Assembly: GCF_900188025.1 (NCBI RefSeq)
Contig: NZ_FZNO01000005.1
Span: forward strand, 1-64,000
Direction of reading: 5' to 3'
Source of the DNA: Blastococcus mobilis
Lineage (GTDB): Bacteria; Actinomycetota; Actinomycetes; Mycobacteriales; Geodermatophilaceae
Length of the DNA: 64,000 nucleotides
This document shows, one piece after another, positions 3,802-60,757 of the stretch (positions are counted from its first letter, which is position 1; every line of letters begins with the position of its first letter). Made by a program: the position numbers and the translations under genes. The notes below the pieces were generated by a model. It was given only the letters and a program-made list of their open reading frames with translations. It had not been told where the DNA came from and did not search any database.

Positions 3802-3857
3802 AAGGACCCCGTCCTCCTCACCCCTCGCGGGCTCGGGGCGAGCCTCGGGACGGGGCC
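3802..3857. repeat. Dispersed palindromic repeat, copy 1
   Basis: This copy has outer arms aaggaccccgtcc and gggacggggcc and inner arms around cccctcgcgggctcggggcgag. It lies between the divergent EamA gene and the SRP RNA gene, one of only two copies not next to a gene's 3' end. The rest of the 3673-3916 interval shows no gene. Confidence 0.75.
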
Positions 3858-3916
3858 TGGGCGTCATGGGCGCGAAGGGTAGCGGGAGGCGTCGTCGGCG
3901 CGCAGGTGCAGTCCTC

Positions 3917-3922
3917 TACAGT
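3917..3922 (+). promoter_or_regulatory. -10 box of the SRP RNA gene
   Basis: TACAGT fits the TANNNT pattern. A start 8-9 bases later coincides with the predicted 5' end of the SRP RNA at 3931. Confidence 0.5.
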
Positions 3923-3930
3923 GGACGCCA

Positions 3931-4017
3931 GACCCCTCGTGTGGCGTCATCCTGTGAACCTCCCCAGGGCCGGAAGGCAGCAAGGATAAGCGGGCTCTGG
4001 CGGGTGCGCGGGGGGTC
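3931..4017 (+). ncRNA. ffs: Signal recognition particle RNA, small bacterial type
   Basis: The conserved SRP54-binding hairpin is clear: ccagggccggaaggcagcaa, with the GGAA-type tetraloop context and the internal-loop bases CAGG and AGCA. The ends pair (gacccctcg with cgcggggggtc), closing the rod-like hairpin. The RNA joins Ffh and FtsY to target membrane proteins. Its place just upstream of dnaX is the usual arrangement in actinobacteria. Exact ends are estimated from the terminal stem. Confidence 0.9.
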
Positions 4018-4180
4018 CTTGCTATGTGATCTGTCGTCCTCCGGACGACACCGCCGCCAGGTGCCGTGCCCCGGGCGCGTGGAGCCGCTGCCCGTGTCCC
4101 CGTCGGGAGACCCACCGGGCCCCCGCGACGGGTCCACATACGAGGTCGCCCGTGTGCGCCGGCCTGTCGCAGCGGGCACG

Positions 4181-4186
4181 TAACCT
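4181..4186 (+). promoter_or_regulatory. -10 box just before dnaX (leaderless geometry)
   Basis: TAACCT ends 6 bases before the GTG start of dnaX. Transcription would begin at or next to the start codon, and no Shine-Dalgarno sequence is visible, so the mRNA is probably leaderless. Confidence 0.5.
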
Positions 4187-4192
4187 GCCCAC

Positions 4193-6418: not shown

Positions 6419-6422
6419 GCCG

Positions 6423-7592: not shown

Positions 7593-7594
7593 CG

Positions 7595-7690
7595 TGGCCC
7601 CGTCCCGGGTCCCGCCCTGAGCCTGCGCAGGCAGATGGCCCCGTCCGGAGGCTCGCCGCGAGCTCGCGAGCGGGGAGAGGGACGGGGCCC
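7595..7690. repeat. Dispersed palindromic repeat, copy 2 (with a partial copy in front)
   Basis: A full copy at 7637-7690 reads ggccccgtccggaggctcgc at the left and gagagggacggggcc at the right; the outer arms pair perfectly. A shortened copy (7595-7636) precedes it. It lies directly behind the acyl-CoA dehydrogenase stop codon. Confidence 0.8.
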
Positions 7691-7731
7691 TGCCAGGGGT
7701 CCGCTTACCGCTGCTGGTCATATGCGCGGCC

Positions 7732-7737: not shown

Positions 7738-7743
7738 CGTGGC

Positions 7744-8730: not shown

Positions 8731-8733
8731 GAA

Positions 8734-8810
8734 AGGACCCCACTGCCCCCCACCGGCCCCCTGCAGGGTCCCGCCGCTAGCTTGCGAGCGGTGGGGGGCA
8801 GGGGGTGTTT
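8734..8810. repeat. Dispersed palindromic repeat, copy 3
   Basis: It begins 3 bases after the recR stop. The outer arms are ccccactgccccccaccg and cggtggggggcaggggg, with the inner motif tagcttgcgagcggt. The arm sequence differs from the ccccgtcc type but remains complementary. Confidence 0.8.
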
Positions 8811-9143
8811 CATCCTGCAGCGGGGCCGCGCCATGGCGTCGCCTGGTGTCCGCCGCAGGGCCGCGGCCGATGGTTGAGGGTTCTCTCACATTCGGCGGTG
8901 CTCGGTGGCAGGCAGGCCGCGGTCCGGGGCATCCTCGACAGGTGCTGAGGGGGTTTGCGTTGACGCGTCGTCGCGCCATCGACCTCATGCGCACGGCCAG
9001 CCGGCTGTAGCTCCGGAGCCGCCGAGCCCGCACGGACCCTTCCCGCCGTCAGGTCCCCCGCCCGCGGCCGCCGCCTCCGACCGGGCTCGCCCTTCCCGCG
9101 TCACCGTCCCGTGCGCACCCCGCCAAGTCCTGCCGAGGCCCTC
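8811..9143 (+). other. Long leader region of metNIQ
   Basis: This 330-bp stretch before metN holds one candidate leader peptide (8960-9010) and a possible RNA stem, CGAGCCCG at 9023-9030 with CGGGCTCG at 9082-9089. I looked for a SAM riboswitch core and did not recognise one. No other gene is visible. Confidence 0.5.
8960..9010 (+). CDS. Candidate leader peptide upstream of metNIQ
   Basis: A 16-codon frame starts with TTG, reads LTRRRAIDLMRTASRL and stops at TAG. A good ribosome binding site (GAGGGGG, 8946-8952) lies 7 bases before the TTG; an in-frame GTG exists at 8942. The pattern RR-x-(H/I)-D-L-x-R-x-(A/S)-S resembles the short actinobacterial peptides annotated as putative leader peptides in front of sulfur-metabolism genes, as I remember them. 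Those usually end with cysteine, which is missing here. A regulatory role for the methionine importer is inferred from position. Confidence 0.5.
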   Translation: MTRRRAIDLMRTASRL

Positions 9144-17938: not shown

Positions 17939-17993
17939 GGCCCTGTCCGGAGGCTCGCCGCGAGCCTGCGAGCGGTGAGGGGGACGGGGTCCT
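17939..17993. repeat. Dispersed palindromic repeat, copy 5
   Basis: It starts right after the TGA of the DppF-type gene and ends at the stop codon of the converging Rieske gene. Left: ggccctgtccggaggctcgc; right: gagggggacggggtcct. It is positioned to end transcription in both directions. Confidence 0.85.
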
Positions 17994-18352
17994 CATTCCA
18001 GGACGACGTCGTCGCCGATGCGGGCCGCCCGGCGCACCCGCAGCCGGGCGATCCGGCCGAAGGCCTGGACCAGCTGGGAGTAGATCGGCGTCGGGCCGTG
18101 ATAGGCGAGGAAGCCGGTCGGCCCCTCGACCATCTCTCCGGTCCGTACGTCGTACCGGCTCTGGTGCCAGGGGCAGACCAGGCAGCCGTCGGCGTCGATG
18201 CTGCCCTCGGACAGGTCGGCGAGCTGGTGCCGGCACCGGCGGGACACCGCGAAGTACTTGTCGTCACCGCGGTTGCCCACGGCCCAGTCGCCGGAGCGGC
18301 GCACCGTTCCCGGCGGCAGGTCGGCGGCGGGCAGGCGGTCGGGCTCTGGCAC
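17993..18352 (-). CDS. Rieske [2Fe-2S] domain protein
   Basis: 119 residues forming a single Rieske fold. The cluster ligands are visible as C-R-H near residue 40 and C-P-W-H-Q-S-R-Y-D near residue 60. Small stand-alone proteins of this kind serve as electron carriers for oxygenases or in unknown redox roles. No signal peptide is present, so it is cytoplasmic. No oxygenase gene is next to it; it stands alone between the importer operon and the TPM-domain gene. Confidence 0.88.
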   Translation of the reverse strand: MPEPDRLPAADLPPGTVRRSGDWAVGNRGDDKYFAVSRRCRHQLADLSEGSIDADGCLVCPWHQSRYDVRTGEMVEGPTGFLAYHGPTPIYSQLVQAFGRIARLRVRRAARIGDDVVLE

Positions 18353-21321: not shown

Positions 21322-21428
21322 AAGGACCCCCAGAAGGGCCCCGTGCTCCTCACCGCTCGCCCGCTCGAAGCGAGCCCCTGGACGGGGTCTCCACTTCGCA
21401 AGCTCAGGGCGGGCCCCTGGACGGGGCC
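21322..21428. repeat. Dispersed palindromic repeat, copy 6 (two copies fused)
   Basis: Directly after the VOC stop codon. It contains gaaggaccccca, ggccccgtgctcctcaccgc, cgaagcgagcccctggacgg and then a second half cttcgcaagctcagggcggg ending in ggacggggcc. It looks like one copy inserted in or next to another. Confidence 0.75.
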
Positions 21429-21469
21429 GGACGGGCCGGCGTGAACGGGGCGCGCCGGCCGGACCGGCC

Positions 21470-21920: not shown

Positions 21921-21979
21921 AGCGGGCCCCCTGCAGGGGCCCGCCGTGAGCGTGCGAGCGGTCGGGGGCAGGGGGTCCT
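21921..21979. repeat. Dispersed palindromic repeat, copy 7
   Basis: Left arm gcgggccccctgcagggg, inner motif gagcgtgcgagcggt, right arm cgggggcagggggtcctt. The outer arms are of the CCCCCTGC/GCAGGGGG type, different from the CCGTCC type yet still complementary. It begins at the start of the PPOX gene and ends 4 bases before the pirin stop codon. Confidence 0.8.
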
Positions 21980-21983
21980 TCTC

Positions 21984-22952
21984 TCACCGCTCGCGCCCGC
22001 GCGGCTTGAGCGGGATCGGCGGCAGCGGCGGGGCCTCGAGCCGGGCGCCGTCGTAGCCCGCGACGGTGCCGAACCGCTCCGACTCGCCGTTCCACTGCTC
22101 GGCGTAGTCGGCGATCTCCGCACCGGACCGCCCGACGAAGTTCCACCACATGACGAGGTGTTCCTCGAACGGCTCCCCGCCGAGCAGCAACAGCCGGCTC
22201 GCGTCGGCCGCCCGGAGCCTGACCGACCTCCGACCCGTGCCCAGATAGAGCATCGCGCCCCGGTCCAGCGGTGCGCCCTCGGCCGACGCCGTCCCGGAGG
22301 CAGCCAGGAGCCCGTACTCGAATTCCGGTTCCAGCGGGACCTCGACATCGGCCCCCGCGGCGAGGTCCAGGTCCACGCCCACCAGCGGGCTGTACGCCGT
22401 CCCGGGCGAGGTGGCCCCACCGAACGATCCGATCAGCACCGTTGCGGTGACGCCGTCCGACGTCCAGCCCGGCAGCGTCGCGTGGTGCTCGAACGCCGGG
22501 GCCGTCTCGCGGTGCGCGTCGGGCAGTGCCACCCACAGCTGGGCGCCGTGCAGGAACCGCGGATGGTTCGCCGGCGACTGCTCGGCATGGGAGATCCCGT
22601 GCCCTGCCGTCATCAGCGCCAGCTGACCAGGTCCGAACCGCACGTCGCTGCCCACGGAGTCCAGGTGGTGCACCTCGCCCTCCAGCAGCCACGACACTGT
22701 CTGCAGCCCGGTGTGCGGGTGCGGCGCGACCTGCATGCCGGCGGAGGTGGCGATGTCGTCGGGGCCGTAGTGGTCCACGAACGCCCAGGCGCCGATCATC
22801 CGGCGGCCCAGGGTGGGCAGCAGCCGGCGGACCCGGGTGCTCTCGCCGAGCAGCACCTCCTTGCCGGGCAGCAGGTCCAGCGCCGGGCCGGCCGAGGTCC
22901 CGTCGAGGCCGCCCAGCTCACGCGCGGCGGGGCGGCGATCGAGGTTGCTCAT
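21984..22952 (-). CDS. Pirin family protein (second of two)
   Basis: 322 residues with two cupin barrels. The N-terminal pirin domain has the metal-binding set FVDHYGPDD, HPHTGLQTVSWLLEGEV, and HAEQSP in place of the usual distal ligands. The C-terminal cupin ends with HLVMWWNFVGRS. Bacterial pirins bind iron or another metal; several have quercetin dioxygenase activity and others act as redox-sensitive regulators. A GAGAGGA site precedes the ATG. It lies 27 bp behind another pirin, so they form a pair in one operon. Confidence 0.9.
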   Translation of the reverse strand: MSNLDRRPAARELGGLDGTSAGPALDLLPGKEVLLGESTRVRRLLPTLGRRMIGAWAFVDHYGPDDIATSAGMQVAPHPHTGLQTVSWLLEGEVHHLDSVGSDVRFGPGQLALMTAGHGISHAEQSPANHPRFLHGAQLWVALPDAHRETAPAFEHHATLPGWTSDGVTATVLIGSFGGATSPGTAYSPLVGVDLDLAAGADVEVPLEPEFEYGLLAASGTASAEGAPLDRGAMLYLGTGRRSVRLRAADASRLLLLGGEPFEEHLVMWWNFVGRSGAEIADYAEQWNGESERFGTVAGYDGARLEAPPLPPIPLKPRGRER

Positions 22953-32765: not shown

Positions 32766-33286
32766 CCCCCACCGTCGTCCTGCCGGTGATCATCGGCGGT
32801 CTCTACGCCGCCGGGGTGTACCTGCTGCTCGACCGCAGCCTCACCCGGGTTCTCCTGGGCTTCCTGCTGCTGGGCAACGCGACCAACCTGCTGCTGCTCT
32901 CCAGCGGCGGCGCGGCGGGGTCGGCCCCGATCCTGGGCTACGGCGACCCCGAGGAGATGAGCGATCCGCTCCCTCAGGCGCTGATCCTCACCGCCATCGT
33001 GATCACCTTCGGGATCGCGGCGTTCGTGCTGGCGCTCATCTACCGCTCCTGGCGGTTGGTCCGCCAGGAGGTCGTCGGAGTGGACGAGGAGGACCGCCGG
33101 GTCGCCCGCCGGTCGGGCATGGACGCCGACGAGATCGACCCCGACGACCTGGCGCCCGAGGACCGGCCGGCCATGCACGCCGACACCCTGGCCGCCGACG
33201 ACGACGCCGAGCGCGGCTTGGCGCGGCACTACTCAGGCATCGCCTCCGACGACGTCGACCTGCCGACCCCGCGGAGCAACCCGTGA
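32762..33286 (+). CDS. mnhC: Mrp antiporter subunit C
   Basis: 174 residues. The NuoK-like core of three helices spans about residues 1-100 (GVYLLLDRSLTRVLLGFLLL, then LPQALILTAIVITFGIAAF). A 75-residue acidic cytoplasmic tail (VDEEDRRVARRSGMDADE...) is longer than in typical MrpC proteins. It starts inside the stop of mnhA (ATGA overlap). Confidence 0.92.
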   Translation: MTPTVVLPVIIGGLYAAGVYLLLDRSLTRVLLGFLLLGNATNLLLLSSGGAAGSAPILGYGDPEEMSDPLPQALILTAIVITFGIAAFVLALIYRSWRLVRQEVVGVDEEDRRVARRSGMDADEIDPDDLAPEDRPAMHADTLAADDDAERGLARHYSGIASDDVDLPTPRSNP

Positions 33287-35043
33287 TCAGCGTCCTCACC
33301 CCGCTGCCCGTGCTGCTGCCGCTGCTGGGGGCGGCCGCCGCGCTGCTGGTGGGTGGCCGGCATCCGGGGATCCAGCGGACCCTGAGCATCCTCGTGCTCT
33401 CTGCGGTGCTGGCTGTCTCGGTCGCACTGCTCCTGCTCGCGGACGCCGACGGGGCGCACGCGGTGTCGGTCGGGGGATGGACGGTGCCACTCGGCATCGT
33501 CCTGGTGGTCGACCGGCTGTCGGCGCTGATGCTGGTGGTGGCCGCGACGGTCGCCCTCGGGGTGCTCGTCTTCGCCGTGGGCCAGGGTGCGGCCGACGGC
33601 GACGAGGAGACGCCGATCTCGATCTTCCACCCGACGTTCCTCGTGCTCATCGCGGGCGTGGCCAACGCCTTCCTGGCCGGTGACCTGTTCAACCTCTACG
33701 TCGGCTTCGAGATCCTGCTGACCGCCAGCTACGTGCTGCTGACCCTCGGTGGCTCGGCGCCCCGCATCCGGGCGGGGATCACCTACATCATCGTGAGCCT
33801 GCTCAGCTCGCTGATCTTCCTCGCGGCCATCGGCCTGGTGTACGCCTCGACCGGCACGGTGAACATGGCGCAGCTGGCCGTGCGGCTGGCGGAGCTGCCC
33901 GACGGGACCCAGCTGCTGCTGCAGTCCATGCTGCTGATCGCGTTCTCGATCAAGGCCGCCGTCTTCCCGCTGTCCGCGTGGCTGCCCGACAGCTACCCGA
34001 CCGCCCCGGCGCCGGTCACCGCCGTCTTCGCCGGCCTCCTGACCAAGGTGGGCGTCTACGCGATCATCCGGACGCAGACCCTGCTGTTCCCCGGTGGTGC
34101 GCTCGACCAGGTGCTCATGTGGGCGGCGCTGGCGACCATGGTCATCGGCATCCTCGGGGCGGTCGCCCAGACCGACATCCGCCGCATCCTGTCCTTCACC
34201 CTGGTGAGTCACATCGGCTACATGGTGTTCGGGATCGCCCTCGCCTCCACTGCCGGGCTGGCCGGGGCGATCTTCTACGTCGTCCACCACATCGCGATCC
34301 AGACCACGCTGTTCCTGGTCGCCGGCCTGGTCGAGCGGCAGGGAGGCTCGACCAGCGTCGACCGGCTCGGAGGGTTGGCGAAGGCATCGCCGCTGCTGGC
34401 CGTCCTGTACTTCGTGCCGGCCATGAACCTCGCGGGCATCCCGCCGTTCTCCGGCTTCATCGGGAAGCTGGGGCTGCTGGAGGCGGGGGTGGCCGACGGC
34501 GGCTCGCTCCCGATCGTGCTGGTCGGCGGCGGCGCCCTCACCAGCCTGCTGACCCTGCTGGCGATCTCCCGCGTCTGGAACCGCGCATTCTGGCGGCCGC
34601 CGGCACAGTCGCCGGCGGACGACACCTTCCGCGCCGCGGCGGAGGCCGCCGGGCCCCAGCTCGCACCCGGGCCGATGCCGGGTCCGGCCGACGAGCAGCA
34701 ACCTGCAAGTGAGAAGCAGCCGGCGGGCGCCGGCACCGCCACCGGTAACGGCAGCGGCAGCCGTGCCGAGGCCCGGCGGGCGGCCTGGGAGCGGCACACC
34801 GCCGTGGCCACGGCGACCGCTCCGGTCAGCGACGGGCTGGATGCAGGGGACGGCTCGCGCGAGCGACCGCTGCGACCCCTGCCACAGGTGATGGTGGCGT
34901 CCACGGCTGCGATGGTGGTGCTGACCGTCGGCCTGACCGCACTGGCAGGACCGCTCTACGCGGTGGCGGAACGCGGGGCCGAGGACCTCATGGACCGGAC
35001 CCCGTACATCTCGTCGGTGTTCGGCGGGGAGGACGTGCCGTGA
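33283..35043 (+). CDS. mnhD: Mrp antiporter subunit D
   Basis: 586 residues with about 14 membrane helices of the NuoM/NuoN type. Motifs include NLYVGFEILLTASYVLLTLG, SIKAAVFPLSAWLPDSYPTA and HIGYMVFGIALA. A long Ala/Gly-rich, charged insertion (about residues 440-530) separates the last helix from the rest, which is unusual. Overlaps at both ends (4 bp) tie it to mnhC and mnhE. Confidence 0.93.
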   Translation: MISVLTPLPVLLPLLGAAAALLVGGRHPGIQRTLSILVLSAVLAVSVALLLLADADGAHAVSVGGWTVPLGIVLVVDRLSALMLVVAATVALGVLVFAVGQGAADGDEETPISIFHPTFLVLIAGVANAFLAGDLFNLYVGFEILLTASYVLLTLGGSAPRIRAGITYIIVSLLSSLIFLAAIGLVYASTGTVNMAQLAVRLAELPDGTQLLLQSMLLIAFSIKAAVFPLSAWLPDSYPTAPAPVTAVFAGLLTKVGVYAIIRTQTLLFPGGALDQVLMWAALATMVIGILGAVAQTDIRRILSFTLVSHIGYMVFGIALASTAGLAGAIFYVVHHIAIQTTLFLVAGLVERQGGSTSVDRLGGLAKASPLLAVLYFVPAMNLAGIPPFSGFIGKLGLLEAGVADGGSLPIVLVGGGALTSLLTLLAISRVWNRAFWRPPAQSPADDTFRAAAEAAGPQLAPGPMPGPADEQQPASEKQPAGAGTATGNGSGSRAEARRAAWERHTAVATATAPVSDGLDAGDGSRERPLRPLPQVMVASTAAMVVLTVGLTALAGPLYAVAERGAEDLMDRTPYISSVFGGEDVP

Positions 35044-35633
35044 CCGTCGAACCCGCGCGCTCCGCGCTCGGGCATCAGCTGCGGCACCAGCTGCCCCTGC
35101 TGGTCTGGCTCGTGCTGGTGTGGAACCTGCTGTGGGGCACCTGGTCGTGGGCGAACCTGCTCAGCGGGATCGTCGTCGCGCTCGCCGTGACCCTGCTGCT
35201 GCCCCTTCCGCCGGTGGTCGGCGGCACTCACCTGCACCCGGTGGGCCTGGTGGTCTTCCTCGGCTACTTCTTCCTCGACCTGGTGCGGTCGGCCGCCCTC
35301 GTGGCGTGGCAGACCATCCGGCCCGGTGGGATCGGGCGCAGCGCGATCATCCGCGTGCAGCTGCGCACCGACTCCGACCTGCTGCTGACCATCGTCGCCG
35401 AGTCGCTGACCCTGGTGCCCGGATCGGTGGTCATCGACATGGACCGGGAGCGGCGGACGCTGTCGATCCACGTCCTGCACGTGCGGAACCTGGAGGACGT
35501 CGAACGGCGACGGGCGGCGGTCCTCGCCGAGGAGGAGCGGGTGGTCCGGGCGTTCGGCTCAGCGGACGAGATCGCCGCGCTGGCGCACGCGCCCGGGGAA
35601 GCGCCTACCGGAACCGGGAGGAGGACGCCGTGA
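35040..35633 (+). CDS. mnhE: Mrp antiporter subunit E
   Basis: 197 residues. Two membrane helices near the N-terminus (LLVWLVLVWNLLWGTWSW, then GLVVFLGYFFLDLVRS) are followed by a cytoplasmic domain with TLVPGSVVIDMD, the MrpE hallmark. GTG start overlaps the mnhD stop. Confidence 0.92.
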   Translation: MTVEPARSALGHQLRHQLPLLVWLVLVWNLLWGTWSWANLLSGIVVALAVTLLLPLPPVVGGTHLHPVGLVVFLGYFFLDLVRSAALVAWQTIRPGGIGRSAIIRVQLRTDSDLLLTIVAESLTLVPGSVVIDMDRERRTLSIHVLHVRNLEDVERRRAAVLAEEERVVRAFGSADEIAALAHAPGEAPTGTGRRTP

Positions 35634-35929
35634 CCGCGGTCTACTGGGCTGCCTACGCCATGCTCGGTGGCGGGGCGTTGCTCACCCTGGTCCGGTTGGC
35701 CCTGGGACCCTCGCTGCTCGACCGGGTGGTCGCCACCGACGTGCTGCTGGTCATCATCTCGGCGGGACTGGCGGTCTACGCGGCGCTGGCGCGCGACCCG
35801 ACCGTCGTGCCGGTACTGGTCGTGGTGTCGTTGCTGGCCTTCGTCGGTTCGGTGTCGGTGGCCCGGTACATCGGCGGCATGCTCGTCCACGCGCCGGCCG
35901 CCGATGACCGGGGGGAGGAGGGGCGGTGA
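35630..35929 (+). CDS. mnhF: Mrp antiporter subunit F
   Basis: 99 residues with three membrane helices. The segment LGPSLLDRVVATDVLLV is the typical MrpF signature. The GTG at 35630 overlaps the mnhE stop by 4 bp; longer frames upstream run through mnhE and are not real. Confidence 0.92.
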   Translation: MTAVYWAAYAMLGGGALLTLVRLALGPSLLDRVVATDVLLVIISAGLAVYAALARDPTVVPVLVVVSLLAFVGSVSVARYIGGMLVHAPAADDRGEEGR

Positions 35930-36393
35930 ACGAGATCGCCACGGTGCGGGACGTCGTCGCCATCGTGCTGGTGCTGGCCGGGGCGTTCCTGTGCCTGACG
36001 GCCGGGCTGGGCCTGCTGCGCTTCCACGACGTCCTCACCCGGATGCACGCCGGCACCAAGCCCCAGGTGCTGGGCATCCTGCTGATCATGGTCGCCGGGG
36101 CCATCCGGCTGCAGGGCTGGTCGGCCATCTGGATGCTGCTGCTGGTGGCGGCCTTCCAGATGCTGACCGCGCCGGTCAGCGCCCACATGATCAGCCGGGT
36201 CGCCTACCGGCGCCGGCACGTACGCCGCGACCTGCTGCTGGTCGACGAGATCCGCAGCGGCGAGAGCGTGGACAGGGTGTACCGCGGCGACGAGCCGGCC
36301 GACGCCCCACCGGAGCAGCCGGCGGCCTCGCTCCGGGCCAGCCGCCGGGAGGATCAGGCCCCGTCCGGAGGCTCGCCCCGAGCTGGCGAGTAG
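35926..36393 (+). CDS. mnhG: Mrp antiporter subunit G
   Basis: 155 residues. The three-helix MrpG core covers about residues 1-95, with the signature LGLLRFHDVLTRMHAGTKPQ. The rest is a charged tail. The last 12 residues ([12 protein letters not shown]) are encoded by a copy of the dispersed palindromic repeat that starts at 36358, so the repeat has extended or replaced the natural C-terminus. It is the last gene of the operon. Confidence 0.9.
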   Translation: MNEIATVRDVVAIVLVLAGAFLCLTAGLGLLRFHDVLTRMHAGTKPQVLGILLIMVAGAIRLQGWSAIWMLLLVAAFQMLTAPVSAHMISRVAYRRRHVRRDLLLVDEIRSGESVDRVYRGDEPADAPPEQPAASLRASRREDQAPSGGSPRAGE

Positions 36394-36455
36394 GAGGACC
36401 TCCTCCTCCCCTCGCACGCTCGGGGCGGGACCCGGGGGGCCTGGGACGGGGTCCT
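36358..36455. repeat. Dispersed palindromic repeat, copies 8 and 9 (head to head)
   Basis: The first copy (ggccccgtccggaggctcgc..., 36358-36405) lies inside the end of mnhG. The second, in opposite orientation (aggacctcctcctcccctcg... to gggacggggtccttcttc), fills the gap to the stop codon of the converging VOC gene. Confidence 0.8.
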
Positions 36456-36458
36456 TCT

Positions 36459-37184
36459 TCAGTCGAGCTGACCCAGCCAGAAGCGCAATCCCTGGTCGTC
36501 GCGGCAGGGCACCGACAGGCCGAAGGACTGTCGCTCGATCTCACCGGCCTCCCCGCCGGCGGTGCGGACGGCGGCGACGGCGACCTCGATGTCGTCGACG
36601 GCGTACATCGGAACGGTGCCCGGCTCGCTGCTGCCTCCGCCGATGCCCACCATGGGCGTCGGACCCTCGACCTGCCAGCCGTCGGGCACCCTGCCCGGGA
36701 CGGCGGTCCAGCCGAGGACCGCCCCGTAGAAGTCCAGCGCCCGGGCGCCGTCGGGCACGTTCACCGTCAGGTAGACCGTGTCGCCCGGCCGCGGGGCGCT
36801 CGTGGCCGGGGCCGCGGGGGACTGCAGCATCCAGCGGTGGCCGTAGGGGTCGACGACCACACCCGTCCGTCCGTACGGGGTGTCGCCGGCGGGGCGCTCG
36901 AGGGTGGCCCCGGCCATGACCGCGCGGTCCATCGCCGCGTCGACGTCGCCCACCGAGAGGTGCAGGCTGACGGCCACCCGGCCGTCGTCCGGCCCGGTCA
37001 GGCCGAGCTCGGGGTAGGGGTCGGCGAGGTAGACCGTCGCGCCGGCGATCTCCACCTCGGCGTGGCCGATCCGGTCACCGTCCAGGTAGGGGTCGCCGAC
37101 GGTGTGGGCACCGAAGGCGTCGGCGTACCAGCTGATGGCCGCGCGGGCGTCACGGACGACGAGGTACGGCACGAGTGCGGACAC
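36459..37184 (-). CDS. VOC-family protein, two glyoxalase-like domains
   Basis: 241 residues. The first module begins MSALVPYLVVRDARAAISWY and ends VVDPYGHRWML; the second starts VYLTVNVPDGARALDFYGAV. The first half resembles the PhnB/YdcJ-like VOC proteins with the AISWY...FGA and GHRW features. The function is unknown. It is convergent with mnhG and lies 123 bp before the end of leuA on the same strand; the two are probably separate units. Confidence 0.85.
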   Translation of the reverse strand: MSALVPYLVVRDARAAISWYADAFGAHTVGDPYLDGDRIGHAEVEIAGATVYLADPYPELGLTGPDDGRVAVSLHLSVGDVDAAMDRAVMAGATLERPAGDTPYGRTGVVVDPYGHRWMLQSPAAPATSAPRPGDTVYLTVNVPDGARALDFYGAVLGWTAVPGRVPDGWQVEGPTPMVGIGGGSSEPGTVPMYAVDDIEVAVAAVRTAGGEAGEIERQSFGLSVPCRDDQGLRFWLGQLD

Positions 37185-43342: not shown

Positions 43343-45670
<2,328 letters not shown>

Positions 45671-45682
45671 CACCGCATCCAG

Positions 45683-47649: not shown

Positions 47650-47726
47650 TGGTCGGGGTGACAGGATTTGAACCTGCGGCCTCGTCGTCCCGAACGACGC
47701 GCGCTACCAAGCTGCGCCACACCCCG
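47650..47726 (-). tRNA. tRNA-Pro (anticodon CGG)
   Basis: On the minus strand the acceptor arms CGGGGTG and CACCCCG pair fully, with A as discriminator and an encoded CCA end (47650-47652). The anticodon loop is TTCGGGA on a 5-bp stem, giving CGG, which reads CCG. The T arm is GCAGGTTCAAATCCTGT. Confidence 0.95.
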
Positions 47727-47742: not shown

Positions 47743-48720
47743 CTAGCGCCCGGTTTCTGTCGGCCCCTCTGCAGGGTCCCGCTGCGAGCGTGCGAGCGGT
47801 GGGCGGCAGAGGGGTCCTCTCTCGGTGAACGTGAGCAGGGTCGCCTCGGGCGGACACGCGAAGCGCGCCGGCGCGTACGGGCTGGTCCCCAGACCCGCCG
47901 ACACGTGCAGCCAGGTACCGCTCGGGTGGGCCGGCGTCGGCTCGGCCCAGCGGTGCAGCCAGCGCGCGCGGTCCCGGTCGATGCCGCAGTTGGTCACCAG
48001 TGCCCCGTAGAACGGCACCCGCAGCTGGCCGCCGTGCGTGTGCCCGCAGAGGAGCACGTCGTAGTCGTCGGCGGCGAACCGGTCGAGCACCCGCGGCTCG
48101 GGGGAGTGGGCCAGGCCGATCCGTACGTCGGCGGTCGGGTCGGCCGGGCCTGCGACGTCGTCGTAGCGGTCCCGCTCGAGGTGGGAGTCGTCGACGCCGG
48201 CGAAGACGATCCGCCGTCCGCCCACGGTCAGCTCGCCGGTGGCGTTGGTCAGGTCCAGCCAGCCGCGGGCCAGCATCCCGTCGCGGAGATCCCGCCAGGG
48301 CAGCTCCGTGCCGTGGACCCGCTTGTGGTTCGGCCGGAAGTACTTCAGCGGGTTCTTCGGCCGGGGTGCGTAGTAGTCGTTGCTGGCGAGCACGAAGGCG
48401 CCCGGGCGGTCCATCAGGGGGTCCAGTGCGGCGAGCGTCGCGGGGACGGCGTCGAAGCCGGCCAGGTTGTCGCCGGTGTTGATCACCAGGTCCGGCTCGA
48501 GGTCGGCCAGCCCGGCGACCCACTCCTGCTTGGAGCGCTGACCGGCGGTCATGTGCAGGTCGGAGATCTGCAGCACCGTCAGCGGGGCGGAGCCGGGGGC
48601 GAGCACCGGCACGTCGAAGCGGCGCAGCGTCCACCGGGTGCGTTCGTAGAGGCTCGCGTAGGCCGTCACCGCCGCACCGGAGGCGACGGTGGCTGCGGGG
48701 AGGGCGGTGTACCAGCGCAC
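47743..48720 (-). CDS. Metallophosphoesterase
   Basis: 325 residues. An N-terminal hydrophobic helix is followed by the calcineurin-like fold with its metal motifs: ISDLHM, NTGDN, ASNDYY (the usual N-H replaced by N-D) and GHTHGGQ. The Mycobacterium orthologue lies next to ponA2 in the same way. The last 27 or so residues (from TERGPLCRP to the stop) are read from a copy of the dispersed palindromic repeat at 47761-47819, so the natural domain probably ends near ATLLTFTER. The Asn-Asp substitution in the third motif deserves checking. Confidence 0.88.
   Translation of the reverse strand: MRWYTALPAATVASGAAVTAYASLYERTRWTLRRFDVPVLAPGSAPLTVLQISDLHMTAGQRSKQEWVAGLADLEPDLVINTGDNLAGFDAVPATLAALDPLMDRPGAFVLASNDYYAPRPKNPLKYFRPNHKRVHGTELPWRDLRDGMLARGWLDLTNATGELTVGGRRIVFAGVDDSHLERDRYDDVAGPADPTADVRIGLAHSPEPRVLDRFAADDYDVLLCGHTHGGQLRVPFYGALVTNCGIDRDRARWLHRWAEPTPAHPSGTWLHVSAGLGTSPYAPARFACPPEATLLTFTERGPLCRPPLARSQRDPAEGPTETGR
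47761..47819. repeat. Dispersed palindromic repeat, copy 11 (inside a coding end)
   Basis: ggcccctctgcagggtcccg, inner gagcgtgcgagcggt, and gggcggcagaggggtcct. Outer arms are CCCCTCTGC/GCAGAGGGG, another compensated variant. It lies within the 3' end of the metallophosphoesterase gene. Confidence 0.85.
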
Positions 48721-48773: not shown

Positions 48774-49226
48774 GTGCCCGAGCTGAAGAACCGCCTGCGC
48801 GAGGACCTGACCACCGCCATGAAGAACCGGGACGAGCTGCGGACGGCGACCCTTCGCATGGTGCTCGCCGCCGTCAGCGCCGAGGAGGTGTCGGGGCGGG
48901 AGGCCCGCGAGCTCTCCGACGACGAGGTCATGGGTGTGCTGCGCCGGGAGGCGAAGAAGCGCCGGGAGGCCGCCGAGGCGTTCGCCGGGGCCGGGCGGGC
49001 GGAGCAGGCTGAGCGGGAGGAGGCCGAGGGCGGGGTGCTCGCCGGCTACCTGCCGGCCCAGCTCGAGGACGCCGATCTCGCCGCGCTGGTCGCCGACGTC
49101 GTCACCCGCACCGGGGCGTCGGGCATGAAGGACATGGGGAAGGTCATGGGCGCGGTGCAGGGTGCCGTCGCCGGCCGGGCAGAGGGCGGCCGGGTCGCCG
49201 CGGAGGTGCGCCGCCAGCTCGGCTGA
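48774..49226 (+). CDS. yqeY: YqeY/GatB-like domain protein
   Basis: 150 residues, fully helical. It starts with GTG and a GGAGAGG site a few bases before. Motifs LKNRLREDLTTAMKNRDE and LPAQLEDADL are those of the YqeY family, which resembles the tail domain of the GatB amidotransferase subunit. The function is unsettled; a role in tRNA-dependent amidation is not shown. It is divergent from the metallophosphoesterase and convergent with the PBP gene. Confidence 0.9.
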   Translation: MPELKNRLREDLTTAMKNRDELRTATLRMVLAAVSAEEVSGREARELSDDEVMGVLRREAKKRREAAEAFAGAGRAEQAEREEAEGGVLAGYLPAQLEDADLAALVADVVTRTGASGMKDMGKVMGAVQGAVAGRAEGGRVAAEVRRQLG

Positions 49227-49228
49227 TA

Positions 49229-49287
49229 CGGCCTCGTCCAGGGGCTCACCGCAAGCGTGCGAGCGGTGAGGAGGACGAGGTCCTTCT
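49229..49287. repeat. Dispersed palindromic repeat, copy 12
   Basis: Starts 2 bases after the yqeY stop: ggcctcgtccaggggctcac, inner gcaagcgtgcgagcggtgag, right gaggacgaggtccttctc. Outer arms CCTCGTCC/GGACGAGG. It ends at the stop codon of the converging PBP gene. Confidence 0.85.
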
Positions 49288-51608
49288 CAGTCGGGGTCGC
49301 GCTCCGGATCGCCCGGGCCGTTGCCGGGTTCGCCCGCGGCCGCAGGTTCAGCCGGCTCCTCGGTCGTCTCCGGCTCGGCCGGCGTCTCCGCGGCAGCCGA
49401 CCCGTTGCTGACCTGGATGGTGACCAGGTCGTCGACGTTCGCCCGGGTACCCGCGGCCGGGCTCGTGCCCAGGAACGCGCCGTCCGGCTGGTCGCTGTCG
49501 ACCTGCCGGACGCTGGACCGGAACCCGGCGTCCTCGAGGGCGGCCTCGCACGCGCTCACCGAGGAGCAGCTGGGCACGGTCCGCATGTCGCCGTTCGCCA
49601 CGGTCGGGTCCTCCGGCGGGAACGGCGTCACCGGCTGGCCGGTGAGGATCGGTGCCATGGCGTCGTGCCAGATGGTCGCGCCCTTGCCGCCACCGAAGCC
49701 GCCGACGCTCTTGTCGGCCGCCGAGTTGAACACGAGGACGCTGGCCGCGTACTGCGGCGTGTAGCCGACGAACGTCACCGAGGCGTTGTTGTTGATCGTC
49801 CCGGTCTTGCCGGCGATCTCGTGGCCCGGTACGTAGGCGCGCGATGCGGTCTGGCCGCTGTAGCCAGGCTCGACATCCTTGCGCAGCATCTGGTTGAGCG
49901 TGTTCGCGACGCCGGCCGGGACGGCCTCGGGCGTGCAGCTGTTGCCGGCGTACACCGGCTTGCCCTCGTCGTTCTTCACGGGGGCGCCGTTGCGATCCAG
50001 GATCCCGGTGATCGGCGTGGGATCGCACTGGGTGCCGCTGGCGGCCAGCGTGGAGAACGCGCTGGCGAGATCCAGCGGACTCACCGCGTCGGTGCCGAAC
50101 GTGAACGAGCCACGGTTCTCGGCGATGATCGTGTCAGCCGGGTACTGGTTCGGGGCGTCGAAGTGCATGCCCATGCGCTGGGCCATGCGCACCGGCCCCT
50201 CGACGCTGCCGAGCTTGTCCTCCAGAGCGAGGAAGTACGTGTTCGAGGACATGTAGAGAGCCTTCTCCATGTCCAGCGTGTTCGGGTAGTTGCTGCCGAC
50301 GTTCGGGACGTCGTAGGGGCCGGCGCCGTCCTTGTAGACCCGGGACACGTAGGGGTTCGCGGTGGTCAGCGTGTAGTGCTTCGAGTACCCCTGCTCCAGC
50401 GCCGCGGCGGCGGTGAACACCTTGAACGTCGATCCCGAGCCGCGGCTGGGGACGACGTTGAGGTTGACCGACTCGCACTCGGGCGCGTCGCAGCCGTAGC
50501 GGCGGTTGTTGGCCATCGCCAGCACGTGCCCCGTCCCGGGCTCGACCGCCGTGTAGGTGCCGACCAGCTCGTCACCCATGGCGAGCGTGTTGAGCACGGC
50601 CTGCTCGCCGGCCGCCTGCATGTCCGGCCGCAGCGTCGTCTGGATGGTGAGGCCACCGTCGGCGATCTCGCGCGGGTCCAGTCCCAGCGTGCCCGTGAGG
50701 TACTGCAGCACGTATGCGCAGAAGAACCCCCCGGTCGTCGCGTCGATGCAGCCGTTGGGCGGGTCCTGTCCCTGGGCCACCGCGACCGGCTGCGCCGAGA
50801 TCTCGGTGAACTCCTGCTCGGTGATGTGCTTCAGGTCGTACATCCGCTGCAGCACCTGGTTGCGCCGCACCTGGGCGTTCTCGGGGTTGGTGATCGGGTC
50901 GTCGTTGGCCGGGCTCTGCACGAGGCCCGCGAGCATCGCCGCCTGAGGGAGGGTGAGGTCCGCGGCGTTCACGCTGAAGTACTTCTGCGCGGCGGCCTGG
51001 ATGCCGTAGGCACCCTGCCCGAAGTACACGGCGTTCAGGTACCGGGTGAGGATCTCGTCCTTGGAGTAGGTCTCCTCCAGAGCCATCGCCAGCCGCGCCT
51101 CGCGGAGCTTGCGCCCCACGCTCTGCTCGGTGGCCGCCTGCCGGTCCTCCGGGGTGGTCGCCGTCTGCAGCAGCGTCTGCTTGACCAGCTGCTGGGTCAG
51201 CGTCGAGCCGCCCTCCTGGACCGAGCCCGCCGCCACGTTCGTGACGAGCGCGCGCATGGTGCCCTGGACGTCCAGGCCGTTGTGGTCGTAGAAGCGGGAG
51301 TCCTCGATGTCGACCAGCGCCTGCTTCATCACCGGCGCGATCTGGTCCGCCGTCACCGGCGTGCGGTTGTTGTCGTAGACGTAGGTGATCAGCGAGCCGT
51401 CCGCGGCCAGCACCTTGGTGTTGCCGGCCGGGGTCCGGTCGGTCAGCTCGACCGGCAGGGCGTCCAGCAGCGTCGCGGAGTTCCGTGCCACCAGCCCCGT
51501 GCCCCCGACCCAGGGGAACAGGAAACCGGCCATGAGCGCACCGGCGACGACGATCGTCGCGGCGAGCTTGGCGAGGGTGTGGGACCGAGACTGCGCGTTC
51601 TCCGACAT
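49287..51608 (-). CDS. Bifunctional penicillin-binding protein with PASTA domain (PonA2-like)
   Basis: 773 residues. A single membrane helix (about 14-38) anchors it. The glycosyltransferase domain (about 65-240) has EDSRFYDHNG and the GGSTLTQQLVKQ motif. The transpeptidase domain (about 330-640) shows STFK, SSN and KTGT, the three penicillin-binding motifs. One PASTA repeat follows near residues 665-735 (PAAGTRANVDDLVTIQVSNG), then an acidic Glu/Pro tail. It polymerises and cross-links peptidoglycan outside the membrane. Placement beside a metallophosphoesterase and two ArsA-like ATPases matches ponA2 of Mycobacterium. Confidence 0.93.
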   Translation of the reverse strand: MSENAQSRSHTLAKLAATIVVAGALMAGFLFPWVGGTGLVARNSATLLDALPVELTDRTPAGNTKVLAADGSLITYVYDNNRTPVTADQIAPVMKQALVDIEDSRFYDHNGLDVQGTMRALVTNVAAGSVQEGGSTLTQQLVKQTLLQTATTPEDRQAATEQSVGRKLREARLAMALEETYSKDEILTRYLNAVYFGQGAYGIQAAAQKYFSVNAADLTLPQAAMLAGLVQSPANDDPITNPENAQVRRNQVLQRMYDLKHITEQEFTEISAQPVAVAQGQDPPNGCIDATTGGFFCAYVLQYLTGTLGLDPREIADGGLTIQTTLRPDMQAAGEQAVLNTLAMGDELVGTYTAVEPGTGHVLAMANNRRYGCDAPECESVNLNVVPSRGSGSTFKVFTAAAALEQGYSKHYTLTTANPYVSRVYKDGAGPYDVPNVGSNYPNTLDMEKALYMSSNTYFLALEDKLGSVEGPVRMAQRMGMHFDAPNQYPADTIIAENRGSFTFGTDAVSPLDLASAFSTLAASGTQCDPTPITGILDRNGAPVKNDEGKPVYAGNSCTPEAVPAGVANTLNQMLRKDVEPGYSGQTASRAYVPGHEIAGKTGTINNNASVTFVGYTPQYAASVLVFNSAADKSVGGFGGGKGATIWHDAMAPILTGQPVTPFPPEDPTVANGDMRTVPSCSSVSACEAALEDAGFRSSVRQVDSDQPDGAFLGTSPAAGTRANVDDLVTIQVSNGSAAAETPAEPETTEEPAEPAAAGEPGNGPGDPERDPD

Positions 51609-53898: not shown

Positions 53899-53908
53899 CA
53901 GCGTAGGA

Positions 53909-53968
53909 GAAGGACCCCGTGCCCCCCACTCCTCGCAGGCTCGGGGCGGGGCCCTGCACGGAGCCGCC
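53909..53968. repeat. Dispersed palindromic repeat, copy 13 (between divergent genes)
   Basis: gagaaggaccccgtgcccccc at the left, cactcctcgcaggctcgggg in the middle and a degenerate right arm gggccctgcacggagcc. It lies 10 bases upstream of the ArsA-like gene start, so it cannot act as a simple terminator for that gene. Confidence 0.75.
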
Positions 53969-56288: not shown

Positions 56289-56306
56289 TGCACGTCCTCT
56301 CGCAAC

Positions 56307-56769: not shown

Positions 56770-56776
56770 CGACGAC

Positions 56777-58170: not shown

Positions 58171-58943
58171 GCGCCGGCGACGCGGCGCGGGAGTCGGCGG
58201 CCGATGGGCTGCCCGACTACCTCCTGCGGCTGCTCGACGCCGCCGTCGACCTCCCGCTCCGCCACCGCATGCCCAAGGCGACGGCCACGGCCCGGCGCTC
58301 CGCTGTGCTCATCCTCTTCGGTGAGGGACCGGGCGGGCCGGACGTGCTGCTGATCGAGAAGTCCGCACACCTGCGCAGCCACGCCGGTCAGCCGGCCTTC
58401 CCGGGTGGCCAGGCCGATCCCGGTGACGACTACCCGGTCGGGACGGCGCTGCGCGAGGCCCAGGAGGAGGCCGGCATCGACCCGGCCGGTGTCCGGATCC
58501 TGGCCACCTTGCAGGAGCTCTTCCTCGGCCCCTCCGACAACCTCGTCGTGCCGGTGGTGGGCTGGTGGGACGACCCGCGGGACGTGACGGTGGGCGATCC
58601 GCGCGAGGTCGCGCGGGTCGCGCGCGTGCCGTTGGCCGACCTCGCGAACCCGGCCAACCGCTTCCGGGTGGGGCACCCGTCCGGCTACATCGGACCGGCC
58701 TTCGCCGTCGCCGACATGGTGGTGTGGGGCTTCACCGCGGGCTTGCTGGAGGCGATCCTCGAGGCGGCCGGGCTCGCCGAGCCGTGGAACGAGCGCGACG
58801 TGCGTCAGCTCCCGGCCTCCGCCGTACGGCCGTATCGGCTGCCGGGATCGGGCGACGACGAGCCCGACGGCGACGCCGCCGCGCCGACGGTGGCCGATCC
58901 CGCGCCGGACGGGCCTCCGACGCGTACGGTTCCGCCCCGATGA
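58167..58943 (+). CDS. NUDIX hydrolase, CoA pyrophosphatase type
   Basis: 258 residues from a GTG overlapping the thioredoxin-like gene. The NUDIX box GGQADPGD...ALREAQEEAGI is complete, preceded by LIEKSAHLRSHAGQPAFPGG, the typical UPF0035/NudL extension for CoA pyrophosphatases. The C-terminal 40 residues are Asp/Pro-rich and variable. Equivalent in position to Rv3672c. It overlaps the following cupredoxin gene by 4 bp. Confidence 0.9.
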   Translation: MSAGDAARESAADGLPDYLLRLLDAAVDLPLRHRMPKATATARRSAVLILFGEGPGGPDVLLIEKSAHLRSHAGQPAFPGGQADPGDDYPVGTALREAQEEAGIDPAGVRILATLQELFLGPSDNLVVPVVGWWDDPRDVTVGDPREVARVARVPLADLANPANRFRVGHPSGYIGPAFAVADMVVWGFTAGLLEAILEAAGLAEPWNERDVRQLPASAVRPYRLPGSGDDEPDGDAAAPTVADPAPDGPPTRTVPPR

Positions 58944-59401
58944 ACGGGGGACGGCGGACGACCGTACGGCGCGGCGCTGGGGCGCTGCTGGGCCTGCTGA
59001 TGCTGCCCGGCGTGCTCGCCGGTTGCAGCGGCGAGGACCTGCCGGAGTCCGGTGCCGCACCGCTGGCACCCGGGGTGGGCGAGGTGACGACGGCGCCCGA
59101 CGGCGTCCAGGAGATCACCCTGCAGACCCAGGACGACTACGTCTTCACGCCCGATCACTTCACCGTCGACCCGGGCCCCGTGCGCCTGACGGTGGTGAAC
59201 GTGGCCGAGGAGATGACCCACGACTTCCGGTTCACGCCGGGCACCGGACCTGCCGCGATCGAGTCGGTGATCGACTTCCTCGCGCCGGGCGAGGAGATGA
59301 CCATCGATTTCGAGGCGACCGCGCCCGGCGACTATCCGTTCGAGTGCAGCTTCCACGTCCAGCTCGACCAGGTCGGCACCATGACGGTGCGCGACCGATG
59401 A
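58940..59401 (+). CDS. Cupredoxin-domain lipoprotein
   Basis: 153 residues. A lipoprotein signal (lipobox LAGC) precedes a single cupredoxin fold. Probable copper ligands are His in EEMTHDFRF and Cys, His and Met in CSFHVQLDQVGTM, the usual H...C-x2-H-x(n)-M set. It would carry electrons or bind copper outside the membrane. This gene is not part of the mycobacterial order as I remember it and appears inserted between NUDIX and marP; the 4-bp overlap with NUDIX keeps the operon intact. Confidence 0.85.
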   Translation: MNGGRRTTVRRGAGALLGLLMLPGVLAGCSGEDLPESGAAPLAPGVGEVTTAPDGVQEITLQTQDDYVFTPDHFTVDPGPVRLTVVNVAEEMTHDFRFTPGTGPAAIESVIDFLAPGEEMTIDFEATAPGDYPFECSFHVQLDQVGTMTVRDR

Positions 59402-59478
59402 CGAGCGGGTCAGGAGCATCGCAGGGAGCGCCGGCGACGGAGGAGCGGACCGGCTCCGGGGTCGAGCGGGGTAACTGA
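59398..59478 (+). CDS. Tiny ORF linking the cupredoxin and marP genes
   Basis: 26 residues (MTSGSGASQGAPATEERTGS... ) from an ATG that overlaps the cupredoxin stop (ATGA); the TGA ends 2 bases before the marP GTG. The composition is Gly/Ser/Ala-rich, so no fold is expected. It may only keep ribosomes moving to marP. Whether a peptide accumulates is unknown. Confidence 0.3.
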   Translation: MTSGSGASQGAPATEERTGSGVERGN

Positions 59479-59480
59479 CC

Positions 59481-60662
59481 GTGTCCGTCGTCGACGTGGT
59501 GCTGATCGCACTCGCCCTCGTGTTCGCGCTGTCGGGTTTCCGGCAGGGCCTGCTGGTCTCCTCCACCTCCATCTTCGGCTTCCTGGGCGGCGCCGTCCTC
59601 GGGGCGCAGCTGTCCGGACCGGTCGCCGATCGGATCGACGGTTCCAGCGTCACGCGGGTGTTCGCCGCGCTGGTGGTGGTGCTCGCCGGGGCGTTGCTCG
59701 GCCAGATCCTGGCCGGGGCGGCCGGCCGCGCGCTGCGCGGGCGGGTCACCTGGGAGCCGGCGAAGATGATCGATTCGGTGGCCGGAGCGGTGGTCTCGGC
59801 GGTCGCCGTGCTGCTGGTCGCCTGGATGGTCGCTTCTCCGCTGGCCAGCTCGCCGTTCCCGACGGTGGCCGGTCAGGTGCGTCAGTCCGGGCTCGTGCAG
59901 GCCGTCGACCGGGCGATCCCCGACGAGGTCCGGACCGTCTACGACAACCTCCGCGACGCGATCGACCGCCGCGGGCTGCCCGACGTCCTCGACCCGCTCA
60001 CCCCGACCGAGGTCCGCGAGGTCCCGGCGCCCGACCCGGCGCTGCTGTCCAGCCCGGTGGTGAACTCGGTGCAGGGGTCGGTCGTGAAGATCACCGGTAT
60101 CGCGCCGTCCTGCTCCCGGCAGATCGACGGATCCGGATTCGTCTACGCACCCGAGCGGGTGATGACCAACGCGCACGTGCTCGCGGGCGTCACCGACCCG
60201 GTCGTGCTGGCCGAGGGGGAGGAGTACGACGCCACGCCGGTCTACGTGGACGAGGCGACCGACGTCGCGGTGCTCGCCGTGCCCGGGATGGAGACGCTCC
60301 CGCTGTCGTTCAGCGCGGACCTCGCCGAGGCCGGCGACGACGCGATCATCATGGGCTACCCCGGCGGCGGACCCTTCTACGTCGGGCCGGCGCGGGTGCG
60401 CGACCGCGTGGAGATCAGCGGCCCGGACTTCCGGAACACCGAGACCGTCGTCCGCGAGGTCTACGCGCTGTTCGGGACCGTCCGGTCCGGTAACTCCGGC
60501 GGTCCGCTGTTCGCCACCGACGGCAGCGTCCTGGGCGTGGTCTTCGCCTCCGCGATCGACGACCCCGACACCGGCTACGCCCTGACCGGGCCGGAGGTCG
60601 CCGAGGCGGCGACCGTCGGCAGCACCGCGCGGGCCGAGGTCGGCACCGGTCCCTGCGAGTAG
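59481..60662 (+). CDS. marP: Membrane-anchored serine protease, MarP-like
   Basis: 393 residues. The N-terminal 165 residues contain four membrane helices (CvpA-like: VVDVVLIALALVFALSGF onwards). The external trypsin-like domain has the triad His in MTNAHVLAG, Asp in TDVAVLAV and Ser in GNSGGPLF. A Cys in APSCSRQ and one in the last residues (PCE) may form the redox-sensitive disulfide known in MarP. The Mycobacterium protein is needed for acid resistance; that role here is by analogy. A frame stop at 59472-59474 fixes the start at GTG 59481. Confidence 0.9.
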   Translation: MSVVDVVLIALALVFALSGFRQGLLVSSTSIFGFLGGAVLGAQLSGPVADRIDGSSVTRVFAALVVVLAGALLGQILAGAAGRALRGRVTWEPAKMIDSVAGAVVSAVAVLLVAWMVASPLASSPFPTVAGQVRQSGLVQAVDRAIPDEVRTVYDNLRDAIDRRGLPDVLDPLTPTEVREVPAPDPALLSSPVVNSVQGSVVKITGIAPSCSRQIDGSGFVYAPERVMTNAHVLAGVTDPVVLAEGEEYDATPVYVDEATDVAVLAVPGMETLPLSFSADLAEAGDDAIIMGYPGGGPFYVGPARVRDRVEISGPDFRNTETVVREVYALFGTVRSGNSGGPLFATDGSVLGVVFASAIDDPDTGYALTGPEVAEAATVGSTARAEVGTGPCE

Positions 60663-60757
60663 GCCCCGTCCGGAGGCTCGCCGCGAGCGTGCGAGCGGTG
60701 AGAGGGACGGGGTCCTTTCTGCTTCGCAGGCTCAGCGCGGGACCCTGAACGGGGCCG
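60663..60757. repeat. Dispersed palindromic repeat, copy 14 (with a partial second copy)
   Basis: Begins at the marP stop codon: ggccccgtccggaggctcgc, inner gagcgtgcgagcggtgag, right agagggacggggtcctttct, followed by a half copy cttcgcaggctcagcgcggg...gaacggggcc. It is between marP and the converging hydrolase gene. The remaining bases to 60824 show no gene. Confidence 0.85.

Follow-up and report, generated by a model that had tools for sequence, protein, structure and literature searches.

Among the repetitive extragenic palindromic (REP) repeats of bacteria, the CGTC-REPs are short dispersed palindromes, mostly intergenic, that lie beside the 3′ ends of upstream or converging open reading frames (ORFs), and the GTAG REPs are high-copy palindromes near ORF ends that often provide the stop codon TAG (Di Nocera et al., 2013; PMC3733652). 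According to that survey, REP repeats are hypothesized to be moved by REP-associated tyrosine transposases (RAYTs); the CGTC-REPs are said to be without a dedicated transposase, and such RAYT-less families are an acknowledged open question; the string 'Actinobacter' is absent from its main text. Here we describe a dispersed palindrome in the genome of Blastococcus mobilis (Geodermatophilaceae; 5.09 Mb in 88 contigs), recognized in a stretch of 64,000 nt, positions 1-64000 of contig NZ_FZNO01000005.1 (72.7% GC), which we call the window. An earlier note, made from the letters of the window alone, had listed about 14 imperfect palindromes there, and these are borne out as 12 full copies and one composite.

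The palindromes belong to a high-copy, mostly intergenic family with covarying stems and a near-constant loop, the tail of the element lies flush on stop codons, and the occupied sites differ between species. We think it likely that they represent a new REP-like family of dispersed palindromes in the Geodermatophilaceae, a RAYT-less hairpin that spreads by means of a mobilizer whose existence we infer. No description of this family was found in the literature searched by taxon and by type, which agrees with the earlier note's remark that it knew of no family with this consensus, although the kind of element, REP repeats beside stop codons, was already described (PMC3733652). A covariance-model search of its own and related genomes finds the family genome-wide and common to the relatives, and the three points that the earlier note had named beforehand as decisive came out in its favour: compensatory changes exceed expectation, the copies favour gene ends, and copies are found outside the window.

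Copy number in the Blastococcus mobilis genome

The family is not a product of chance, since a consensus of the head half, allowing up to 3 mismatches, has 51 matches in the genome and its reversed control has 0. A covariance model (CM) was built from the 12 full window copies, whose own recovery is by construction, and it gives at least 152 matches in the whole genome, a lower bound set by the 150 candidates scored. The counts below come from an unselected sample of 400 kb (C57:1-280000 and C51:1-120000, in our contig numbering) and from two further sets of stretches chosen for holding hits. In the 1.254 Mb of this genome so covered there are 164 CM matches at an E-value of 1e-5, from which 154 copies were kept; the ten dropped are five partial units of an array in L179, three of an array in L101, the partial match L180:10669 and the window composite. 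The unselected 400 kb contains 31 intergenic matches, of which five are units of a single tandem array; extrapolation from this sample gives roughly 400 copies per genome, a rough figure because the copies are clustered. Head-to-tail tandem arrays are found at L179:16403-16764, with a spacing of about 60 bp, and at C57:257051-257377 (equivalent to L101:17051-17377), with a spacing of about 54 bp; full copies seldom lie in close pairs (5 such pairs among the 154).

Structure and covariation of the repeat unit

The unit, about 58 nt long, is a hairpin in two parts: 10 outer pairs, then a 5/2 internal loop, then 8 inner pairs that enclose a 10-nt loop, with a pyrimidine tail after the hairpin. 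The outer stem is GGCCCCGTCC/GGACGGGG-T-CC and is separated by the internal loop, of 5 nt on one side and 2 nt on the other, from the inner stem CTCGCCGC/GCGGTGAG, which often contains a G.U; the loop is GAGCNTGCGA and the pyrimidine tail TTCT. Two subfamilies, a GTCC type and a TGC type, are distinguished by their outer stems.

The earlier note's claim that the outer arms differ and yet stay complementary is upheld. In the 12 window copies 96.3% of stem cells are paired, with 23 double changes as against 8.3 after shuffling (0/500 shuffles as high). A larger alignment was made freely with MAFFT from 72 copies of the same genome, being those of at least 55 bits, drawn from 95, with one overlapping copy removed. 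Here 93.6% of cells pair, double changes are present in 13 of the 18 pairs, and 156 cells are doubly changed compared with 55.0 (standard deviation 5.2) in shuffled alignments, none of 500 being as high; slid controls reached at most 21. Given this alignment unaided, RNAalifold predicts 13 pairs, 11 of them with compensatory changes. The loop is conserved at 95-99% in eight of its ten columns, with one T at 77% and one free position (N), whereas conservation of the covarying stem columns goes down to 49-68%.

Imperfections of the hairpin are also maintained. The fourth inner pair is G.U (a G.T mismatch in DNA) in 106 of the 154 copies, and the asymmetric internal loop is retained in nearly all aligned rows. 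When the fourth pair is excluded, wobbles of the inner stem read on the top strand are G.U in 43 cases and A.C in 10. We considered whether the structure follows the host transcript, and this was rejected, as the G.U:A.C ratio goes in the same direction in both classes of site: next to a gene that would transcribe the bottom strand only, it is 13:4 in the inner and 22:11 in the outer stem, and next to one that would transcribe the top strand only it is 10:3 and 7:3, respectively (39 of 86 G.U cells stem from two pairs). Because G.U exceeds A.C even where the gene would transcribe the other strand, we take the wobble bias to reflect a constraint that acts, at least for the inner hairpin, on the top strand of the element itself and not on host mRNA.

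Placement and polarity at gene ends

Genes were called with our own codon-usage script, without a check against an annotation, and they take up about 88.6% of a 0.85-Mb sample (in the window, 57 genes and 90% coverage). Only nine of the 154 copies lie in called genes; the 145 intergenic copies comprise 47 between convergent, 84 between tandem and 12 between divergent genes, and 2 at edges. The element has a marked polarity, which the earlier note overlooked. Its tail end, GGTCCTTC, is flush on the stop codon facing it in 65 of 102 own copies, flush meaning an overlap of 1 to 7 nt between the 61-nt model match and the called gene, and where the head faces a stop it lies within -1 to 5 nt of it in 29 of 77. 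In tandem pairs, where uniform placement up to the next start would put 4.6 tails and 3.6 heads flush, 35 of 55 tails and 9 of 29 heads are so. Orientation is biased (55 tail-to-stop, 29 head-to-stop, p 0.006), and 13 of the 47 convergent copies are flush at both ends. Even among tail-facing copies 1-110 nt from the stop another tail-like motif precedes the stop in 26 of 33 cases, as against 7.2 expected from 995 control stops, which suggests nested copies. The same arrangement is seen in the relatives, where 15 of 16 tail-facing stops are flush and 22 of 25 matches are outside called genes; this set is 25 of 26 matches, one at a contig end being excluded, and seven of them are the best-scoring matches of genome G017.

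Of the 13 copies in the window, 8 have a stop no more than about 12 nt away; 6 are between converging genes and 2 between divergent ones, and one is inside the 3′ end of a called gene. The statement in the earlier note that nearly all copies touch a stop codon was overstated for the window, although 3′ ends are favoured far beyond uniform placement. In the unselected 400 kb the excess of convergent over tandem pairs with a copy is not significant (p 0.07).

Positions 2-9 of the tail hold a TNA or CTA triplet in 105 of the 154 copies, and such a triplet is present in 40 of the 86 copies not flush with a stop, compared with 12.4% of background intergenic 8-mers. A second kind of site is the −10-like hexamer TANNNT, which directly follows the tail in 7 of the 13 copies situated 0-30 nt before a start; it does so in 2 of 31 copies farther off, and 5% of 1106 control genes have it. 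The count of 7 of 13 is for the full set, and in the first set, restricted to at least 50 bits, it was 7/7. That the element supplies the stop codon as a general rule is not supported, because the flush genes mostly use TGA (26/34; TAG/TAA 8/34), not far from the baseline of 716/817, and because at one orthologous junction (site C, below) the right-hand stop and C-terminus are kept in sequence L017, which is without the element (judged by eye).

Distribution among genomes

Matches are present in 29 of 38 Geodermatophilaceae genomes, in numbers from 1 to at least 149. The nine family genomes without a match belong to genera g6, g9 and g27 of our numbering, and all are fragmented assemblies of 2.4-3.7 Mb. 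Copy number varies strongly even within the own genus, from 1 to at least 143, the genus member G015 having one weak match; the genomes G009 and G017 have 113 and 66 CM matches, both below the limit of 150 scored candidates. Besides Blastococcus mobilis, G010, G019 and G045 are rich in copies, and G015, G018 and G063, like the g6 and g9 genomes, are poor in them. No match was found in 16 genomes of other families in the same order, and among 295 other genomes of the phylum, with the best 18 candidates scored per genome, three have a single marginal match (36.7-41.3 bits) and none a strong one. In a viral collection one contig has one exact match to a loop-centred pattern (L189:3475-3495).

The Y1/RAYT transposase domain (PF01797, Y1_Tnp) was found neither in the Blastococcus mobilis genome nor in any of 25 family genomes, whereas 5 of 14 control genomes match, and mobilization by a RAYT is rejected on the strength of these searches. 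We also considered a replication-strand bias, of the kind that would point to single-strand transposition on the lagging strand, with leading and lagging strands assigned from origins located by dnaA. It is weak (G009, 47 leading and 66 lagging, p 0.09; G017, 23 and 43, p 0.02), and it is confounded because of the tail-to-stop orientation bias described above.

Copies in the window

All 14 places listed in the earlier note are real, as inspection of the sequence at each of them and the CM agree, but the entries at 36358 and 36394 both belong to a single composite, in which two copies are fused, and that at 8734 is a fragment fused to the copy at 8755. The copies are as follows, with CM scores in bits.

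3797..3857, − strand: full copy, 80.3 bits, between divergent genes
7637..7697, + strand: full copy, 69.4 bits, between tandem genes, a stop 44 nt before it
8731..8754, − strand: fragment of a reversed copy, abutting a stop at 8730 and fused to the copy at 8755 (boundaries by eye)
8755..8815, + strand: full copy, 75.1 bits
13690..13750, − strand: full copy, 77.0 bits, tail flush with the stop of a + gene ending at 13691
17939..17999, + strand: full copy, 79.0 bits, exactly between converging stops at 17938 and 17993
21329..21389, − strand: full copy, 68.8 bits, with an extra tail fragment beside a stop at 21321
21394..21429, − strand: partial copy, repeat family D4
21925..21985, + strand: full copy, 76.8 bits, tail flush with the stop of the − gene 21984-22952
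36357..36461, + strand: composite of two fused copies, 39.1 bits as a whole, with 36389-36441 on the − strand scoring 35.7 bits
45681..45740, − strand: full copy, 65.1 bits, between converging genes (asd ending at 45670, a − gene ending at 45753)
47763..47823, + strand: full copy, 73.2 bits, inside the 3′ end of the − ORF 47743-48720
49230..49290, + strand: full copy, 81.0 bits, exactly between two converging stops
53905..53965, − strand: full copy, 78.5 bits, in a divergent promoter region, the tail abutting a −10-like TACGCT
60662..60722, + strand: full copy, 81.6 bits, head flush with a stop at 60662
60722..60757, − strand: partial copy following the preceding full copy, repeat family D4

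The composite holds the 3′ end and stop of a + strand ORF ending at 36393 and abuts the stop of a − strand ORF at 36459; the short ORF that it overlaps (region 35926-36461) is the last in a run of six + strand genes, 29880-36393. The C-terminus of the − strand ORF 47743-48720 passes through the palindrome, and 13 of 19 orthologue alignments stop at residue 292-301 of 325. At the Rfam gathering score the window yields only a signal recognition particle (SRP) RNA gene (3928-4023) and two tRNA genes (2625-2709 and 47653-47726), and the palindrome matches no Rfam family. A 24-bp G-rich tandem repeat of about four units occupies 3572-3667, within the called − strand ORF 2644-3672.

Orthologous sites

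Four window junctions were compared with their counterparts in other genomes. At site C, between converging genes (49226-49287), the element is present in Blastococcus mobilis, G008 and G010, a variant hairpin is found in B. capsensis (L035), and the element was not seen in ten other sequences, some of which have only 3 bases between the stops (by eye). At site A (36357) only G003, among the eight relatives compared, has a copy. The divergent site D (53905) is occupied in Blastococcus mobilis, G012, G002 and G011 and not in G015, G005, G009 and G013; G012 and G011 share the same left junction, and their arms differ by mostly compensated double changes (by eye). On a four-protein tree, in which several nodes have little support, both patterns of occupancy are scattered, and because of this scatter the gains or losses have probably been repeated.

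At the asd junction, site B, different hairpins are found at the same convergent place in L149, L150, L151, L154, L158, L160 and L161 (folded) and in L009 and L014 (by eye), and G003 and L017 have short gaps only. The closest named relatives at this locus are Geodermatophilus, Blastococcus and Modestobacter, and no near relative turned up when plasmids were searched with the asd region. Around GTCACGCTCCGCGTGACACCGC there is a further short repeat, at 45640-45680 of the window, where it contains the asd stop; it ends asd in several species (L013, L035, L016, L149, L161). With up to 4 mismatches allowed, 1.25 Mb of the own genome gives 10 matches to it, and only about two of these seem to be true copies.

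Interpretation

These features are consistent with a non-autonomous element, the top-strand hairpin of which would be recognized in single-stranded form by a factor other than a Y1/RAYT transposase. Insertion or retention would occur at triplets containing T and A, such as stop codons and −10 boxes offer where the DNA is about 73% GC, and this preference would give rise to the gene-end pattern. Once placed, the hairpin would stand a few nucleotides after the stop, where local consequences for 3′ ends or for ribosomes at the stop are plausible as a secondary matter; possible functions at gene ends include termination, mRNA protection and ribosome stalling. A more specific proposal, that dispersal independent of Y1/RAYT depends on a family-specific factor that reads the top-strand hairpin with its almost invariant GAGCNTGCGA loop and inserts it with fixed polarity beside stops, and often beside −10 boxes, where the scarce T/A triplets of this GC-rich DNA lie, so that gene ends throughout the family are repeatedly re-shaped, is offered tentatively and we regard it as possible though doubtful.

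Several observations weigh against the main reading, beginning with the structure itself. Stem columns 10, 18, 39 and 41 are as conserved as the loop (96-99%), and what keeps the arms complementary could be template-switch correction of a quasi-palindrome instead of selection. In the outer stem the excess of G.U over A.C is weak (43 and 28, p about 0.1); between converging genes the ratio is 9:1 in the inner stem and 10:11 in the outer, where there is no excess, in divergent regions it is 4:3 over both stems, and all of these wobble statistics treat copies that share ancestry as independent. With regard to placement, the tail consensus may itself carry the T/A triplet, the −10 association fails in 6 of 13 copies, and the gene calls rest on our own codon-usage caller, not on an annotation. 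As to mobility, no mobilizer was identified, candidates other than Y1 not having been searched for; the patchy occupancy could also reflect loss; there is no clean empty/filled pair from near-identical strains; and no target-site duplication was noticed in the flanks inspected, which were not searched systematically for duplications.

Of the other readings the one that survives best, although we consider it rather unlikely, is translational control, in which a hairpin a few nucleotides after the stop would stall ribosomes and lower expression, as reported for REPs of E. coli within 15 nt of a stop (stated in PMC12306157, citing earlier work). The flush spacing of both tails and heads fits this, but the reading leaves the divergent copies, the conserved loop and the spread of the family unexplained.

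Somewhat less probable is the role favoured by the earlier note, in which the hairpins are bidirectional transcription terminators or mRNA 3′-end protectors, retained by selection once they had spread. In its favour are the strength of the hairpins and their position immediately behind stops. So is the arrangement of genes over 854 kb, a sample partly picked for its hits, where a copy is present in 27 of 111 convergent gene pairs, 43 of 590 tandem pairs and 10 of 112 divergent ones; over the unselected 400 kb, however, the figures are 7 of 51, 16 of 264 and 4 of 51. Tailward of the hairpin T stands at 79, 88, 27, 45 and 19% in the first five positions of the 86 copies not flush with a stop; the headward equivalent, A on the top strand, is at 8-22%, and reading headward reveals no U-rich run after the hairpin. 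It also counts against this role as the main driver that junctions A and C are without the element in many relatives, that 12 of the 145 intergenic copies lie between divergent genes, that 8 of the 35 flush tandem copies have the start of the next gene only 21-32 nt beyond them, and that the preference for G.U, strong in the inner stem only, tracks the element's top strand whichever strand the gene would transcribe. The different hairpins that several relatives have at the asd junction keep termination alive as a reading for that site, and this junction would be a good natural series in which to study it.

Template-switch correction of quasi-palindromes is a known mutational process, and it is quite unlikely that it alone accounts for the covariation of an otherwise inert element. 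The close match of the arms (93.6% of cells) is as it would predict, but it should erase both the G.T of the fourth pair and the asymmetric internal loop, and both are kept, although their persistence could also reflect recent common descent. Least probable of all is that selection has spread a site to which a nucleoid, gyrase-like or repair protein would bind at the DNA level. This would suit the conserved loop, the stem symmetry and the copies in divergent regions, and has a parallel in the targeting of E. coli REPs by DNA gyrase (PMC3733652), but no protein is known for it, and a strand-asymmetric preference for G.U is not expected of a duplex site.

A REP-like hairpin that spreads without a RAYT would have two consequences that we consider worth emphasizing. 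Many family genomes have from tens to at least 149 such hairpins, yet no Y1 enzyme is found in the 25 searched, and since this coexists with a genus mate that has one weak match, a search for the mobilizer by comparative genomics is directly possible. The fixed polarity towards stops, moreover, is a sharp rule for how repeats choose or keep their sites.

Comparison with known systems

We file the element as REP-like rather than as a REP, because the GTAG and CGTC tags are absent and no RAYT was found. With intrinsic terminators it has in common a GC-rich stem-loop right after the stop, but it differs in being a repeated homologous family with a conserved loop that is also present in divergent regions and has no U-run in one direction. 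Miniature inverted-repeat transposable elements (MITEs) are likewise small, dispersed and non-coding, with inverted ends that form hairpins, but at the 70-300 bp given for them in PMC3733652 they are longer than the present element, which is essentially one hairpin.

The REP repeats are closer. Like the GTAG REPs associated with RAYTs, the element is a dispersed and mostly extragenic palindrome in high copy (145 of 154 copies outside called genes), but it has no conserved unpaired GTAG; the reverse complement CTAC is present in the first 10 tail bases of only 23 of 154 copies, the tail columns being variable. The unit is also longer, close pairs are few, and Y1_Tnp is missing from all 25 family genomes searched. 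The resemblance to the CGTC-REPs extends to dispersed intergenic palindromes at ORF 3′ ends and to the lack of a detected Y1 transposase, Y1 being the sole transposase class searched for here. In those repeats, however, CGTC is an unpaired terminal tag, whereas here it is part of the paired outer stem of one subfamily, where it covaries, and is replaced in the other; and the CGTC-REPs have stems of 8-9 bp and loops of 4-5 nt, whereas the Geodermatophilaceae element has 18 pairs in two parts closed by a 10-nt loop.

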